Shown here one piece after another: positions 10,741 through 51,697 of a DNA stretch of 64,000 nt. This stretch comes from Anaerocolumna cellulosilytica (GTDB lineage Bacteria; Bacillota; Clostridia; Lachnospirales; Lachnospiraceae). The stretch is taken from NCBI RefSeq assembly GCF_014218335.1, contig NZ_AP023367.1:5270001-5334000 (forward strand). The letters are read 5' to 3'. Each line of letters begins with the position of its first letter. The stretch's first letter is position 1. The notes under the pieces were generated by a model. The model did not search any database and was not told the DNA's origin. It was given only the letters and a program-made list of their open reading frames with translations. A program made the position numbers and the translations under genes.

Positions 10741-10752
10741 TGCTCACGATGT

Positions 10753-10829
10753 ATGCAACCGGCTGCCTTGTAACTTGTACTTAGGCCCTTGGCTTTGCGT
10801 CCTTACTTTTCAATAAGTTTGCCTTTTCA
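10753..10829 (-). promoter_or_regulatory. c-di-GMP-I (GEMM) riboswitch aptamer
   Basis: The minus strand carries the family's conserved blocks in order: AGGCAAACTTATTGAAAAG, then GGACGCAAAGCC closing the first hairpin, then GGGCCTAAG, then GGCAGCCGGTTGC closing the second. The GNRA-like GAAA loop and the GGACGCAAAGCC strand are diagnostic of GEMM-I. It precedes a terminator and a chemoreceptor gene, a gene class commonly controlled by this riboswitch. Whether binding switches expression on or off depends on the antiterminator, which I did not resolve. Confidence 0.92.
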
Positions 10830-10945
10830 TTATGCTATTTTTTAAACACCTATAAACATCGGTTACAATACCGATTGGTATAATTATGGATTGGCTGAGA
10901 TATTATGCTCTTTTTACCAATTATTAAGCTTCATGCATAGTTAAT

Positions 10946-16347: not shown

Positions 16348-16578
16348 ATGGTTATATCAAGACTTACAATTGGTAGTGCCTTAAAGAATCTTAGAAAGAA
16401 AGCCTGATTATCACAAGAACAAGTGGCTTCCCAGCTCCAAGTTATGGGTTGTAATGTTTCAAGAGCTATGTATGCACAAATGGAAACCGATTCTTATGGT
16501 ATTCGTATCAGCGTTCTTGTGGCTCTTAAACAGATATTCAAGGCTGAATACAGCGATTTCTTCGCAGATTTACCATAA
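16348..16578 (+). pseudogene. XRE-type helix-turn-helix regulator with in-frame stop
   Basis: Reads MVISRLTIGSALKNLRKKA, then TGA (16405-16407), then LSQEQVASQLQVMGCNVSRAMYAQMET ... VLVALKQIFKAEYSDFF and a normal stop. Without the TGA it would be a typical 76-residue Cro/C1-type HTH protein; the stop stands where a Gly codon (GGA) is usual before LSQE. The rest is intact, so decay is recent. It is unlikely to be recoded, since UGA is a stop in Clostridia. Its stop codon abuts the intron's 3' end. Confidence 0.7.
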
Positions 16579-17718
16579 TCGAGTAGGAGGTAGCTGATTA
16601 ATTCAGCTACCGACCTCTCACACCACCGTACGTACGGTTCCGTATACGGCGGTTCTCTAGTTTACACAAACTTTCGAGTAATAATCAGAGAAATAAATAA
16701 ATCCTAGATTACTTAATGTTTGGTTGTCTAGGCTTTTGCTTAGAATAGGGCTATTGGATATTCTCCAGTAGCCTTTTCTTGTGTTTGCATACTCCCATGC
16801 TTTCCATTCATTAACTCCATACTGTTTTATCCCTAAAGGTCGTTGTTTACCATCTGGCTTTGGAATGTAGACTCGTTTAACTGGTAACGGTTTATATTTC
16901 CCATTGACCAAGTCTTGTTGAATATCAAACAGGTATTCTTCGACTCCATACTCCTCAATCATTTCAAAGGTTATGCCATCAATACCCGCACTTCCCTTGT
17001 TTATCCTTACTTCTTTCCATGCCCGCCACAATATATCCAGGCGATAGATACGGTCATACAACGCATGAAATCTGCGTTGTTTATTCTTATTGGCTGCTAG
17101 GTATAGATTACGTTGAAGTTGTCGTGATTTTTCTATTGAGTGTTGTTGTCCTTTATCAGGCATGCACTATCCCTTACCTTCCCGTTAATCATGATTAAAG
17201 CAGAGTCCCTTTTCTCCCACTGTTTATCTTATCAGTGGTTCGTAGATACTATGGACTCCTCCGACTCCTCATATCGCTTCTTCAAGAATTTCGTGTGTAC
17301 ACTTATATCCTGAATTACATGTTTATGGAGCATGACGATATGAGGTCTCTTCTGTTCCATCACCAACTGTCTTAACATTCCGCTTCCTCTACACCGAAGG
17401 GTTCTTCAACGCTGCTTTTCCAGTATCTTCACGTCTTCCATGGTCTTCGTCAGAAAGTCAATGACTCGACTCCCTTTTGCCCTCTTACGAGGTCTAAGGT
17501 AACGATGCTACAGTATTCACTTAATGTTACAGACTGTTAATTTGCACCTATTTCACATAGGCATACCTCGCTTCAGCACAGTCAGTCACCCAAGAGCACT
17601 GGAGGCTTGCTACAAGGCTCACTGGCAATTACCTTGACCGGACTTTCACCGGTAAGCTGATGACAGCTTTCAGAACACACGACTTTCACCCGTTAGATTG
17701 CGCCCATGCTGGGCGCAC
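16578..17718 (-). mobile_element. Degenerate group II intron, class C-like
   Basis: The minus-strand 5' end at 17718 is GTGCGCCCAGCATGGGCGC, a canonical group II start, followed by CTAACGGGTGAAAGTC and other domain I elements. Near the 3' end there is a domain V-like hairpin around 16610-16650 (CCGTACGTACGG) and a domain VI hairpin (GGTAGCTGA...TCAGCTACC) ending CCTACTCGAT. The 5' exon is the Rho-independent terminator of ybaB, the insertion preference known for bacterial class C introns. The encoded maturase is internally deleted, so the element should not move by itself. Boundaries are predicted from motifs. Confidence 0.85.
16657..17163 (-). pseudogene. ltrA: Group II intron reverse transcriptase/maturase with internal deletion
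   Basis: The first about 112 codons match the N-terminal RT region (RRFHALYDRIYRLDILWRAW, GSAGIDGITFE, VKRVYIPKPDGKQRPLGI), then the reading jumps to the far C-terminus (WKAWEYANTRKGYWRISNSP ... LGFIYFSDYYSKV). The catalytic YADD motif, thumb and most of the X domain are missing; a full protein would be about 420 residues or more. Frame is maintained across the deletion. Cannot act as a reverse transcriptase. Confidence 0.85.
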
Positions 17719-36788: not shown

Positions 36789-36886
36789 CTCTTATTGTTC
36801 GATTACTCGCTCAGGTTGGCACCTTCCACTTTCGGGGGTTGCCGTGACTTCATAGAGCCTTTACTCTCCGTCACTCTGAATAAGAG
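36789..36886 (-). promoter_or_regulatory. SAM-I (S-box) riboswitch aptamer
   Basis: P1 is perfect: CTCTTATT (36886-36879) with AATAAGAG (36796-36789). Between them the S-box core is present in order: CAGAGTGACGGAGAG, GGCTCTATGAAGTCACGGCAACC, AAAGTGGAAGGTGCCAACCTGAGCGAG. The ATGAA, GGCAACC and AGGTGCCAA blocks are diagnostic. Controls metK by transcription attenuation with the terminator that follows. Confidence 0.96.
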
Positions 36887-45799: not shown

Positions 45800-48136
45800 T
45801 TATAATTCCTTATAAAACACATAGGTTTCTTTGAGTTCTTCCGTAATTTCTACCCCCTCTTTTTCCAGAGCACGATATCTTAAATCCAATTCTTTCACTT
45901 TTTTTAAATTATTTCTGTTAAAACGATCCATAGCATCGGCAAATAAAGGCTGTCCCTTTATTCTTTCCCTTATGGACCGGGCAAACGGACAATAGGTTGC
46001 TAATATTCCCCTGGCAACTCGATTCAAGCGCAGACCACCATTTGCTTCGCTTTTAACCCATGCCTCATAGTCTATTACAAAAACTTCTCTATAGTTATTT
46101 CTCCCCTTTTGAATCTGCGCTTTCAGCTTCTCTTTCATTTCTTCTGATAAATCACGATTTTTGCGGTAAAATTGTATGTAATCCGCATATTCTGAGGTTA
46201 AAGATTTTTCTTTTATATTGTTCCAGGCAGTTCCTTGAATCGATCTGCATAATTCCCAGCGGAATTTTCCGAAGATTTTTACCAATATATCCTTTAAAGA
46301 ACCCTCAATAAATATAGGCAACATAAATCTACCTTCATTGCTCTTTCTCTTGCCTGTTATTTCCTGCCACATAACTCCATTACAACCCACGGTCGGGAAT
46401 AAGATTATATCAGGGAATACCTGCTTCATAATATATTCTTTAACTATTTTTTTCTCGGGATTCACATACAAAATCTCCCTATGAAAAATAGAATAGTCAA
46501 TCTCAAGAAGCTCATTGACAACCTCGTTCACTTTCCTTTTAGTTGCCAACAAAGTCTTAAAACCTTTTACAACGTTATCGCCAAACAAAAAGGGGACAAA
46601 GGTACTGATTTGCCCGTTTACAAGCCTGTGGTTATACCGGAACATGTTCCGCATTTCATATAACACTTTTTGTACCGGATTTTCAAGAGCCTGCTTTTCT
46701 TCTTCAATTGTAATCTCGCCGCGTTTTTTCTTCTCTCTTAACATATCCACGTAATCCTGATCAAATTCATTTTTGGAAGGCTCTTTTTCACCCTTTAGGA
46801 TACAGGTCAACCAGGATTTTATATTATATACCGGACAGGAACCAAAGTCTTCTTCCTCTTCTTCCAAATAATAAAGTTCCCTTAATTGCTCACCCGACAA
46901 CATACGCTCATCCATATAGGCATATTTTAAGAACAAATCGATAACCTTAGGAATGGTTCTATCTGTACAGGATTTTAGAAAGACTAACTCGTATACCTCA
47001 TAAAAGTGTACCATTAACTTTTTACGGAGCACTCTTGTAGTATCGTCGGTAGACATTTTATCTTTTAAATTAATATAATCTACAATTGCCTGTTTAAAAT
47101 CATCAGCCTTTTCTTTTGTCTGCCCGGAATAGTTAAGAATTTGTACGAGAGAATCCTTTAATTCCTCCGTAACTTCCTTAACCTCACTCTCGGTATACAT
47201 AAAGTTGTTTTCCATCTGTTCTTTTCTATTACTGCTCTTAGATAATAGAAAATAGTAGATTTCTTCCATACGTTTCCGCTCGACCTCTAAGTCATAACCC
47301 ACTTTTTCTTCGAAGATTTTCTCAACCATATTTATCTGGTCAATGATGCTGTCAATAATCTTAATGACATCTCCACTATAGCCACCCTTTTCGTCAATAG
47401 ATATGGCTAGGGTGGCAAAGCATTTGAATAAGCAGTCTTCTGAATTGTTCATAAGACAGAAAAACAGCTCTTTAATATATTCCGTCAACTCTCCACATTC
47501 AGATATCAACTGTGATGCAAGCTCCGCAGTTTCTTCCACAAGATATAGGGTTACCGTATCTCCCGAAGAACAAAAAGATTTCCAGGTATCTACTGGAATT
47601 TTAGCACACTCCTTATAATAATCAAGCTTCCGTTCGTCTATGGTATAGTCACTGTCATATAACTCCATATCTTTAATGGATGGGATTACAGTCACCGGAT
47701 ACCCCAGCCTATTGCCTGTATCTGTATATATCCGGTTATTTTTATCTATAAAATGATATAATTGTTCTGCGGTTGTTTTTAGGGCATGGTAGGCTTTTTC
47801 AAGCTCACTTACATACCTTGTTAAGGATGCAGCCATTAATCCTTTGTAATCTTTATTAGATGTAAAGACTTCTGCCAGTTCATCCGTTGTCTGAACAGGA
47901 AAACAATAAAACAACACTTCATCATATGCGGTATAGTTATTGATGTATTGTCCGGAAAACAGGTCTGCTACACCTATAAAATTACCAGAACCTAACAATA
48001 CCTTAGAACCATTATTAACAGCCTGCACTCGCCCTTTTATAATTATGCTTACGCTTTTTATCTGTTCACCGGCATCATAAATTATGGTGCCTTTGTCAGC
48101 CTGATTTACTGCATAATTGTTAACTTTCATTCCCAT
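45800..48136 (-). CDS. Large protein with N-terminal cyclic nucleotide-binding-type domain
   Basis: 778 residues. Residues about 15-125 resemble a Crp-type cNMP-binding beta-roll (GTIIYDAGEQIKSVSIIIKGRVQAVNNGSKVLLGSGNFIGVADLFSGQYINNYTAYDEVLFYCFPV), but no HTH follows. The remaining about 650 residues are helical, with acidic YYLEEEEEDFG near 435 and no recognised catalytic motif. No signal or membrane helix. I recall such proteins in Lachnospiraceae without known role. GAGGTGAGC precedes the ATG. The 5' leader carries a structured RNA and terminator, so expression is probably regulated by attenuation. Confidence 0.65.
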   Translation of the reverse strand: MGMKVNNYAVNQADKGTIIYDAGEQIKSVSIIIKGRVQAVNNGSKVLLGSGNFIGVADLFSGQYINNYTAYDEVLFYCFPVQTTDELAEVFTSNKDYKGLMAASLTRYVSELEKAYHALKTTAEQLYHFIDKNNRIYTDTGNRLGYPVTVIPSIKDMELYDSDYTIDERKLDYYKECAKIPVDTWKSFCSSGDTVTLYLVEETAELASQLISECGELTEYIKELFFCLMNNSEDCLFKCFATLAISIDEKGGYSGDVIKIIDSIIDQINMVEKIFEEKVGYDLEVERKRMEEIYYFLLSKSSNRKEQMENNFMYTESEVKEVTEELKDSLVQILNYSGQTKEKADDFKQAIVDYINLKDKMSTDDTTRVLRKKLMVHFYEVYELVFLKSCTDRTIPKVIDLFLKYAYMDERMLSGEQLRELYYLEEEEEDFGSCPVYNIKSWLTCILKGEKEPSKNEFDQDYVDMLREKKKRGEITIEEEKQALENPVQKVLYEMRNMFRYNHRLVNGQISTFVPFLFGDNVVKGFKTLLATKRKVNEVVNELLEIDYSIFHREILYVNPEKKIVKEYIMKQVFPDIILFPTVGCNGVMWQEITGKRKSNEGRFMLPIFIEGSLKDILVKIFGKFRWELCRSIQGTAWNNIKEKSLTSEYADYIQFYRKNRDLSEEMKEKLKAQIQKGRNNYREVFVIDYEAWVKSEANGGLRLNRVARGILATYCPFARSIRERIKGQPLFADAMDRFNRNNLKKVKELDLRYRALEKEGVEITEELKETYVFYKEL

Positions 48137-48241
48137 AGCTCACCTCAATCATCTTTTGCAAATTTAAACATAATAGTATTATAATCTATATTTCGACATT
48201 CTGAAAGCAGAAAATGTAATTTTAGGTATCACATGTATAGT

Positions 48242-48275
48242 AAAAAAGCACCAATATATATTTTATTGGTACTCC
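48242..48275 (-). terminator. Attenuator-like terminator in the leader of the cNMP-domain gene
   Basis: GAGTACCAAT pairs with ATTGGTGCTT around an A/T-rich loop, followed by TTTTTT on the minus strand. It lies 106 bases upstream of the ATG at 48136, and 21 bases 3' of the multi-stem element, the arrangement of a riboswitch expression platform. Confidence 0.8.
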
Positions 48276-48296
48276 TTTTACTTATAAATCATTTTA

Positions 48297-48362
48297 GGGG
48301 CCGGACCACCGTTACCGGTGGATTTGAGCAAAGGCCTATCCCCATTGATAGTTACCGGCCCC
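48297..48362 (-). promoter_or_regulatory. Unassigned multi-stem structured leader (candidate riboswitch)
   Basis: On the minus strand, P1 GGGGCCGG (48362-48355) pairs with CCGGCCCC (48304-48297). Inside are a hairpin CTATC/GATAG with loop AATGGG (48351-48336), a 14-base unpaired segment GCCTTTGCTCAAAT, and a hairpin CCACCG/CGGTGG capped by a GTAA (GNRA) tetraloop (48321-48306). The GNRA loop exists only on this strand, fixing orientation. A TATTGG just before P1 can pair with CCAATA of the terminator, giving an antiterminator. I do not recognise it as a known riboswitch class. Confidence 0.6.
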
Positions 48363-48534
48363 AATATATTGTATATAGAAAACTACCCCCTTTGGCAGAT
48401 TCTACCATGGGAAGAAAAATAAATACCTGCTTATTACTTAAACTACCAATATTTTTCCTAAGAACTAAAAAAATGCCGTTCACATAATGTGACGACACCG
48501 TTGTCTTATCAGACCACTTATTTTATATATATTA

Positions 48535-49203: not shown

Positions 49204-50064
49204 CTATGGAATTAAGCTTATTTTTACATTATGAACATCTTGATATTCGCTTAATTTCTTTTGAATTAATTCGTTGTACGTATAGTCCTCGGCATCATTT
49301 AGGGATACAATAAATTCTCTAACCATAGGGTACGTTGTCAATATATATGTTATAATATCCTCCATTAGCTCTATTATACAACATTTTTCCTTAAATGATA
49401 TCACACAGGTATCATCATTTAAAGAATCAATCTTCCAACCATGATGTGTTCTCGAAGGGCCTATAATAGTTTTACAATATCTATTATTATCAATATATTT
49501 ATATAACACATAATGGGATAATACACCATTCTCCAAACATACTTGTTCTTCAGTTATCTTATTGGTATTACCATACTTAAAGGTACTAATATATACTGGT
49601 TTACGATTCATCTGATTATCAATATGTTCTTTTTTTACAAGAAGATTGTTATGGTAATAAAATTTTTCTTTATATGAAACTATTTTATCCAACTGATTGC
49701 TGGTTTTTTTCAAATCATCATGAACTACAGGCGAAAGGTAGCTACTAGTGACTTCAATTAGTAATCGATTATCATCATAAATATTATCATAAACATACTC
49801 ACTTACATGAGTCCGAATTATATTTTTAGAAATTCCATCATATATTAAGAATGTATCTTTTTTGTACGATAGATTACCTACATTATCATACTCATTATAG
49901 ATAGTATTACTATCTAGCAAGACTCCATCCTCATTATAAGTCTCTCTACTTGTCATATCACCTTGACAGTTATATTTGTAAATTGTTTCTCTTATGTAAT
50001 CTATATCCTGTACAAGATGGCGAAGAACATCTCCATATTTATCTTTTTCAATTGTAATTTTCAT
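49204..50064 (-). CDS. YD-repeat-like protein of unknown function
   Basis: 286 residues, cytoplasmic (no signal or helix). Much of it is made of beta repeats resembling YD/RHS or wall-associated units: YKYNCQGDMTSRETYNEDGVLLDSNTIYNEYDNVGNLSYKKDT, KFYYHNNLLVKKEHIDN, FKYGNTNKITEEQV. The last about 70 residues lose the pattern. Very AT-rich, unlike ffs and tadA around it. It lies downstream of the secreted toxin-like gene on the same strand, so an immunity or partner role is conceivable but not shown. GGAGGAG precedes the ATG. Confidence 0.55.
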   Translation of the reverse strand: MKITIEKDKYGDVLRHLVQDIDYIRETIYKYNCQGDMTSRETYNEDGVLLDSNTIYNEYDNVGNLSYKKDTFLIYDGISKNIIRTHVSEYVYDNIYDDNRLLIEVTSSYLSPVVHDDLKKTSNQLDKIVSYKEKFYYHNNLLVKKEHIDNQMNRKPVYISTFKYGNTNKITEEQVCLENGVLSHYVLYKYIDNNRYCKTIIGPSRTHHGWKIDSLNDDTCVISFKEKCCIIELMEDIITYILTTYPMVREFIVSLNDAEDYTYNELIQKKLSEYQDVHNVKISLIP

Positions 50065-50319: not shown

Positions 50320-51432
50320 TCATTGATATATGTTTCCTTGTAGATAAGTGGGACCTCCTACTTCATATTTTACATCATAAGACATAACTTGGTATATTTG
50401 CCAGGACATTTGGTTTCCATAACGCATAAATTCTGTATCATCCCTTAGTAGTCTAATATGGGCATGGAAATATGACTTATTGCTAGGATTAAAAAGAACA
50501 TATAATTTACCACCTGATACGTCAAAGTTAGGTAGCTGCCATGTTGAATGTGAATTAAAATCTTGATTCACATTTGCTCTTTGATTTACTCCTAAATTAT
50601 AGACCATTAATACCTTATTTTGAATATGCGAATAATATATTGCTAATGGATTTCTAGATCGAACTACTGGTAACGCATATGCAGAATCGATATGTTTTGA
50701 AAAGCTAGCGGTTGGATTTCCATTTCTATATGTACCTAATGCTTTATTAATATTTTCTCTAACTGTAGTATACGATGGCTTTGCTGTAGTAAAACTATCT
50801 TCAATATTAGCAGAAGCCATCAATGATTTAAATGTTGTTTTAAAAGCACTAACAATAGCAGTCCAGTGAGTGTTAACATTGTCCCAATTTGCAACTAGCA
50901 CCGCTAAGCAACCTGCTGCTACTAACAGTCCCACCAATTGAGCTACTGTTATATTAGAGCCAATGGCAACAATTGAACTTCCCACTCCAACTAAGGCATA
51001 CTTTACAGCTACTGATAAGCCATTAATTAAATCCAAATTATTACTTAAGGTTTGTGTTAAATTTAAAGCAGTATATGACTGCATTAATACGCTATCCATA
51101 GATAACAATTTAAGTTCATCATTAACATTTGTTCCAACATACATAGTATGATATTCATACATATCAGGATTGTTTATTAGATATTCAAGAAAAATTACTT
51201 TTGCTTCATCTGTAAGCCCATTGTATACATCTTTTGCGCCAACTTCCGAATTTGACACATCAAAAAATGGCTCTTCAGATAATTCTGTGTATTGATCCAA
51301 CGTAATATCAAATTCCTCAGAACTTTTAATCGTTTGAGCCGCATTAACAATATATGAATCTGTTAAAAACAGTAAAGTACAAATAAGTATTGCTATTGTA
51401 CGAGCTATAGATTTCTTTAAAAAAATTTTCAC
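50320..51432 (-). CDS. Secreted protein of unknown function, toxin-like layout
   Basis: 370 residues. Signal peptide MKIFLKKSIARTIAILICTLLFLTDSYIVNAAQT, cleavage near 33; a central Gly/Ala/Val-rich hydrophobic segment (about 140-195, VAVKYALVGVGSSIVAIGSNITVAQLVGLLVAAGCLAVLVANW) that could insert into a membrane; and an Asn/Tyr/His-rich C-terminal domain (about 245-370) with YFHAHIRLLRDDTEFM. No family recognised. I start at GTG 51432 because GGAGGAA directly precedes it and the signal begins there; an upstream in-frame ATG lacks a site. The layout resembles secreted toxins with a hydrophobic translocation or pore segment; function unproven. Confidence 0.6.
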   Translation of the reverse strand: MKIFLKKSIARTIAILICTLLFLTDSYIVNAAQTIKSSEEFDITLDQYTELSEEPFFDVSNSEVGAKDVYNGLTDEAKVIFLEYLINNPDMYEYHTMYVGTNVNDELKLLSMDSVLMQSYTALNLTQTLSNNLDLINGLSVAVKYALVGVGSSIVAIGSNITVAQLVGLLVAAGCLAVLVANWDNVNTHWTAIVSAFKTTFKSLMASANIEDSFTTAKPSYTTVRENINKALGTYRNGNPTASFSKHIDSAYALPVVRSRNPLAIYYSHIQNKVLMVYNLGVNQRANVNQDFNSHSTWQLPNFDVSGGKLYVLFNPSNKSYFHAHIRLLRDDTEFMRYGNQMSWQIYQVMSYDVKYEVGGPTYLQGNIYQ

Positions 51433-51697
51433 ATTTCCTCCATTTATACTTGCAAGTACTAATATTTTTTTCAAGCCTGTTGGTAATATTTTACATTTGT
51501 TTTATTGTTTTGTCAATACGAAATAACTTTCAATTTTTCTAGCTTTATACACAGGTTATCCAAATAACCTAAAATTTTAATGATTACTTACATAGCTAAA
51601 AGGGTGTCTGTTCTCCTTCTATTACCAAAATGGAATGAATTATAATTTTACAGAATCTATTTTTCTTTCAATTTATTAAAATACTTCTGCTAAACTG

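Follow-up and report, generated by a model that had tools for sequence, protein, structure and literature searches.

Does the structured RNA encoded ahead of a cNMP-domain protein gene in Anaerocolumna cellulosilytica control that gene, or is it something else? A sequence-only reading of the 64,000-nucleotide stretch of contig NZ_AP023367.1 that we analysed (positions 5,270,001 to 5,334,000; hereafter the window) had proposed the former, as a riboswitch with a terminator. The parts that it named are all found on the minus strand: the closing stem P1 around two hairpins, one with a GUAA loop, at 48362-48297, a 14-base unpaired segment at 48335-48322 and, seen in the fold, a hairpin with a U-run behind the structure. 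Its limits were drawn too narrowly, since they left out a covarying 5' hairpin, P0 (48404-48376), which we recognised from leaders of orthologues and nine aligned copies, and it overlooked the large SRP RNA gene just upstream (48799-48537). The element is a four-helix RNA, P0 to P3 (minus strand, 48404-48297), followed by a terminator-like hairpin (48281-48240) and flanked by the SRP RNA gene upstream and the gene for a 778-residue protein downstream (Table 1). Loci and genomes are given below by L and G numbers.

Table 1. The element and its surroundings in the window (feature; positions; strand; evidence or remark).
Large SRP RNA gene, RF01854	48537..48799	-	cmscan 200.4 bits, E 9.6e-34
Terminator-like hairpin and T-run after SRP RNA, UGUCGU...ACGGCA then 7 T	48467..48497	-	by eye
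P0 hairpin: UAGAA/UUCUA and CUGCC/GGUAG, loop AAAGGG	48376..48404	-	
P1 5' strand GGGGCCGG	48355..48362	-	pairs with CCGGCCCC
P2 hairpin CUAUC-AAUGGG-GAUAG	48336..48351	-	
Single-stranded linker, 14 unpaired bases GCCUUUGCUCAAAU, holds CCUUUG; candidate seed	48322..48335	-	
P3 hairpin CCACCG-GUAA-CGGUGG	48306..48321	-	GUAA loop in window, loop not conserved
P1 3' strand CCGGCCCC	48297..48304	-	
Terminator-like hairpin and U-run, 3' end of element	48240..48281	-	fold and leader comparison
Promoter-like site of downstream gene, TTCAGA-16-TATAAT	48178..48205	-	10/12 consensus matches
778-aa protein, N-terminal cNMP-binding domain; neighbour, outside RNA gene	45800..48136	-	PF00027, E 9e-07

The stretch 48230-48380, which takes in the terminator, folds at -51.2 kcal/mol compared with -33.0 (sd 3.4) for shuffled sequences (z = -5.3), and none of 200 shuffles folds as well, bearing out the earlier statement that the stems are unlikely by chance. 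The reading had also placed the element outside the known riboswitch classes, and a cmscan of the window against Rfam at the gathering score indeed returns no family for it. At E-values up to 10 the element draws only three Rfam matches, all far under their cut-offs, the best being tsr31 (25.2 bits against a cut-off of 50, E 0.054). A permissive cmscan of the stretches from the window, L036 and L037 reveals no known aptamer family; among riboswitches NiCo comes closest, with a match in L037 on the opposite strand (17.7 bits against 37). Elsewhere in the window, also on the minus strand, lie matches to SAM and c-di-GMP-I-GGC riboswitches (36789-36886 and 10750-10832) and two to group II introns (17522-17655 and 16578-16654).

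We aligned 14 copies of the element, 11 of the Anaerocolumna type and three from other Lachnospiraceae genera (L036, L037 and L038). The first nine were chosen by an exact core, and a core pattern supplied two more, L044 and L056, so the sameness of the core is partly a product of choice, 11 of the 14 copies having been selected on it. Between alignments A2 and A3 a stricter cut-off removed two antisense matches, one in L009 and one in L044, and A3 was fitted to the covariance model and is hence biased towards it. The earlier reading had suggested looking for covariation in homologous leaders, and it is present: in the model-fitted alignment of 14 copies, 14 of the 30 base pairs vary at both positions with pairing kept, and 97.4% of 416 cells are paired, compared with 30-48% in slid controls. 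Of five covariation measures on this alignment, four lie beyond every one of 500 shuffles, while for the remaining one, further pair types, 200 of these shuffles do as well, so that it does not stand out. Both-side changes occur in three of the 10 pairs of P0 (99.3% of cells paired), four of the eight of P1 (100%), one of the five of P2 (A-U to G-C in three copies) and six of the seven modelled pairs of P3 (89.5%), one of which is unformed in the window. The inner stem of P0, for example, appears as CUGCC/GGUAG, CUUGCACC/GGUGCAAG, CCGG/CCGG or CUGG/CCAG, always with pairing kept. An unfitted MAFFT alignment of nine copies has both-side changes in four of 35 pairs, and from the fitted alignment RNAalifold recovers all four helices, P0 to P3. 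Changes of loop length, such as that of the P0 loop of L011, which is one base shorter, speak against a conserved frame. Comparison of the copies thus confirms the element as a real, covarying structured RNA, and adds a structure with good support that Rfam 15 does not match.

We then asked what accompanies this RNA. Every one of the 14 copies follows closely on a large SRP RNA gene in the same orientation; in 13 the assignment is by covariance model (cmscan), and in L056 by reading the SRP 3' end at the start of the contig. For L009 and L017 it was made through the overlapping loci L035 and L074, and the SRP RNA gene of L018 is cut by the contig end. The genes behind the element differ, with four kinds of downstream setting, two of them convergent. 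In L037 the next gene presumably encodes a phosphofructokinase, in the L036 locus (L054) it is a convergent histidine kinase gene, and in the L038 locus (L046) a convergent gene for a tadA-like deaminase. Comparison across the copies shows four covarying helices in a fixed place after ffs, the SRP RNA gene, with no fixed downstream gene, and this raises a testable question, namely why the element stays by the SRP RNA gene while the genes behind it differ.

These observations bear directly on the proposed riboswitch. The order of structured domain, terminator and gene in Anaerocolumna is what a riboswitch controlling the cNMP-domain gene would require. However, all 12 same-genus leaders of the gene (L009-L020) have a TATAAT block downstream of the terminator position and ahead of the ATG, so that the gene has a promoter block of its own. 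The element is present in nine of these leaders and absent from L014, L019 and L020, and six more distant orthologue leaders (L022-L027) show no core. In L014 the element is gone, with a terminator remnant still readable, yet the gene and its promoter block are kept. The strand TATTGG, to which the earlier reading assigned an antiterminator role, does lie beside P1 in the window, but only two of the 11 Anaerocolumna-type copies have it (L009 and L010), and it is not conserved. Given the promoter block, the varied downstream genes of the other three genera, the constant SRP RNA gene upstream and the unconserved TATTGG, we reject a riboswitch acting by antitermination and regard control of the cNMP-domain gene by a riboswitch with a terminator as very improbable indeed.

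The terminator itself also belongs with the element. The motif GGTGCTTTTTT is found in all nine same-genus leaders that carry the element and in none of the three that lack it, and in Anaerocolumna comparison of the leaders shows a terminator-like hairpin behind the four helices. A simple terminator scan of the window listed neither this hairpin nor that at 48467-48497; it did list the counterpart of the former in L044. The terminator is degenerate in L056 and not clear-cut in L036 (no scan match) or L038 (by eye).

The distribution of the element is patchy. Its own genome holds one copy, and the covariance model found it in three further Lachnospiraceae genera, in a single genome of each, L036 being that of Candidatus Galacturonibacter soehngenii. 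Under strict filters, model R1 gave seven matches in 397 genomes of the family, four of them strong (own, L036, L037 and L038); the weak ones, L039-L041, bear no likeness to the element by eye. Model R2 gave 11 matches in 392 genomes of the order, of which two are strong, namely its own and that in G597, where L061 coincides with L044, the eleventh Anaerocolumna-type copy, in a genome that is placed in another family. The nine weak matches comprise L063 and L068 with a REP-like motif, L069 with a hairpin and T-run, L062, which reads as coding, L064, L065 and L070, which we take to be IS200 left ends, and L066 and L067, for which we have no explanation. Searches among relatives of G181, G063 and G173 gave strong matches only in those three genomes and weak ones in L062 and L083, and the weak matches within the genus are L080-L082.

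Within Anaerocolumna, 10 of 15 genomes have a strong match. The assemblies of G001 and G005 show no SRP RNA, so that the element is carried by 10 of 13 genomes with a readable SRP RNA gene and absent from three. In the genus of L036, the SRP RNA gene of G728 is followed by other sequence and that of G727 by a group II intron, at a contig end (RF02003, L138:1856-1954); in the genus of L038, tadA comes directly after the SRP RNA gene of G732, without the element, and no SRP RNA was found in G733. Among SRP loci of other genera, 27 searched without filters (27 of the 30 retrieved from the 290 genomes that have a match) gave nothing convincing (best E 0.24). With filters off, nine elementless loci gave at best a short match in L139 at E 0.00076, on the strand opposite the SRP RNA gene, which we take for chance. 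That locus also has a Clostridiales-1 RNA (RF01699, L139:2491-2644) about 0.7 kb upstream of its SRP RNA. A strict core had no matches in viral contigs and a looser core 11, none a model match, and the core scan of genome contigs gave 18 stretches, of which 12 are element loci, mostly of Anaerocolumna, and six are without the element (L049, L052, L055, L057, L058 and L060). In a tree of the short TadA protein from 23 loci, L054, L059 and L046, from the three other element-bearing genera, stand apart from Anaerocolumna, and the elementless L086 and L103 are nearer to it than they are; the tree does not favour simple vertical descent, in a protein that is too short to decide.

Two parts of the element do not change. 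The P2 loop, AAUGGG, and the CCUUUG of the linker are identical in all 14 copies, 11 of which were chosen by core. The linker is complementary over 5-7 bases to the P0 loop region in 12 of 14 copies, in raw complementarity without shuffle comparison and counting G-U pairs and, in some copies, stem bases. This pairing is absent from L037 and L038, where the linker could instead pair with an AAAGGA located at the base of P1; L036 has both options. A search of the own genome for linker targets with at most one mismatch gave 10 places and the gene itself, compared with eight for a reversed control, and hence no enrichment. Pairing of the P2 loop and linker with SRP RNA was tried for 12 of the 14 copies and tested in 11, L036 having no SRP start by the pattern used. 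One SRP site is common to six of the 11 (L009, L013, L015, L016, L017 and L044), the sites of the others lying elsewhere. The energies differ from those of shuffles by no more than about 1.1 sd, no copy doing better than the best shuffle, and we rejected this pairing.

A constant neighbour could mean that the element is a cis-acting 3' module of the SRP transcript, made by read-through only, which helps in processing, protecting or terminating the SRP precursor. Besides the constant SRP RNA gene directly upstream, this explanation has in its favour that tadA precedes both in the same orientation in the window and in L059, and that in L046 the SRP RNA gene and the element face tadA, from which we conclude that the pair stayed together through rearrangement. 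Likewise, a consensus promoter scan between the SRP RNA gene and P0, on the right strand, found none in the window, L044 and L036, so read-through from ffs is possible, and in L044 the T-run of the SRP RNA gene is separated from the modelled element by only 22 nt, mainly a GC-rich palindrome. However, terminator-like hairpins are seen by eye between the SRP RNA gene and the element at other loci as well as in the window, one in L036 being listed by the scan; the gaps range from about 62 to 282 nt and vary in sequence, with unrelated inserts; and the SRP RNA genes of other genera manage without the element, as the four strong matches in the family and the 27 loci attest. We think a cis module unlikely. 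As for the inserts, a palindromic cassette, ATGCGCA...GTCACT...GTGAC, directly follows the terminator-like hairpin of the SRP RNA gene in L013 and L056 (before the element) and in L139, and by eye L012 has a similar insert. In the window, two minus-strand ORFs between tadA and the SRP RNA gene (49204-50064 and 50320-51474) have no Pfam match to E 1.

The patchy presence, and the separation of the three other genera from Anaerocolumna in the TadA tree, would also fit an origin from a REP- or IS200-like mobile element, the RNA being a remnant or satellite of it that settled beside ffs. Some weak matches point the same way, including the presumed IS200 left ends and palindromes with GGGGAC.GG..CTTT (L063 and L083) or a similar motif (L068). 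The E-values of these weak matches, however, are expected by chance at this search size, the own genome has a single copy, no transposase domain occurs in the four neighbouring proteins scanned, and the covariation is found at one locus across genera, and we give this origin little credence. The REP-like L063, L068 and L083 share GGGGAC and GG..CTTT with P2 and the linker, which may be chance. Protein binding, with the RNA serving for instance as decoy for a regulator of the kind that binds G-rich hairpin loops, would account for the identical P2 loop and for the G-rich, AAAGGG-type P0 loop of the Anaerocolumna-type copies, but not for the AUUA or UUAU that replaces the latter in L037 and L038, and it seems to us quite unlikely.

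The reading that we prefer, and that we rate at about even chances, is that the element is an independent gene for a small non-coding RNA, placed directly behind ffs, so that its reading changes from riboswitch to candidate small RNA gene. The empty promoter scan, the fifth covariation measure, the unenriched linker targets and the patchy distribution count against it. Transcription of such an RNA would start at a promoter of its own or come about by read-through from ffs. Our guess, and in our view the most likely mode of action, is that its exposed linker, (G/U)CCUUUG(C/U)UC, would base-pair in trans. The linker could pair with AAAGGA-type ribosome-binding sites, and its pairing with the P0 loop region might represent a masked state. 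That an RNA made together with SRP RNA tunes protein targeting or the translation of a set of mRNAs, its level following secretion capacity, is a long shot.

A search of the literature at the level of abstracts gave no RNA recognisable as the element; a listing in surveys (PMC8040213, PMC8632094) is possible. Like riboswitches with a terminator platform, the element is a compact multi-helix RNA followed by a terminator; unlike them, it is not tied to one downstream gene, and the gene that follows it carries a separate promoter block. The bacterial large SRP RNA (RF01854) adjoins the element in all 14 copies, and the element is a separate structure that does not match that family. Nor does it match Clostridiales-1 RNA (RF01699), which is also an orphan structured RNA of Clostridia and has one copy near an SRP RNA gene, in L139. 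Compared with the small RNAs of Firmicutes that carry C-rich regions, RoxS/RsaE, FsrA and CsfG, the element has another fold, no Rfam match and candidate targets only, and its linker has CC rather than the CCCC-type stretches of RoxS-like RNAs. The linker nevertheless resembles the C-rich pairing stretches of the RoxS type in kind, as far as excerpts of two papers describe them (PMC5419742, PMC8216469), and the element would work like these small RNAs should its linker pair with G-rich sites in mRNAs.
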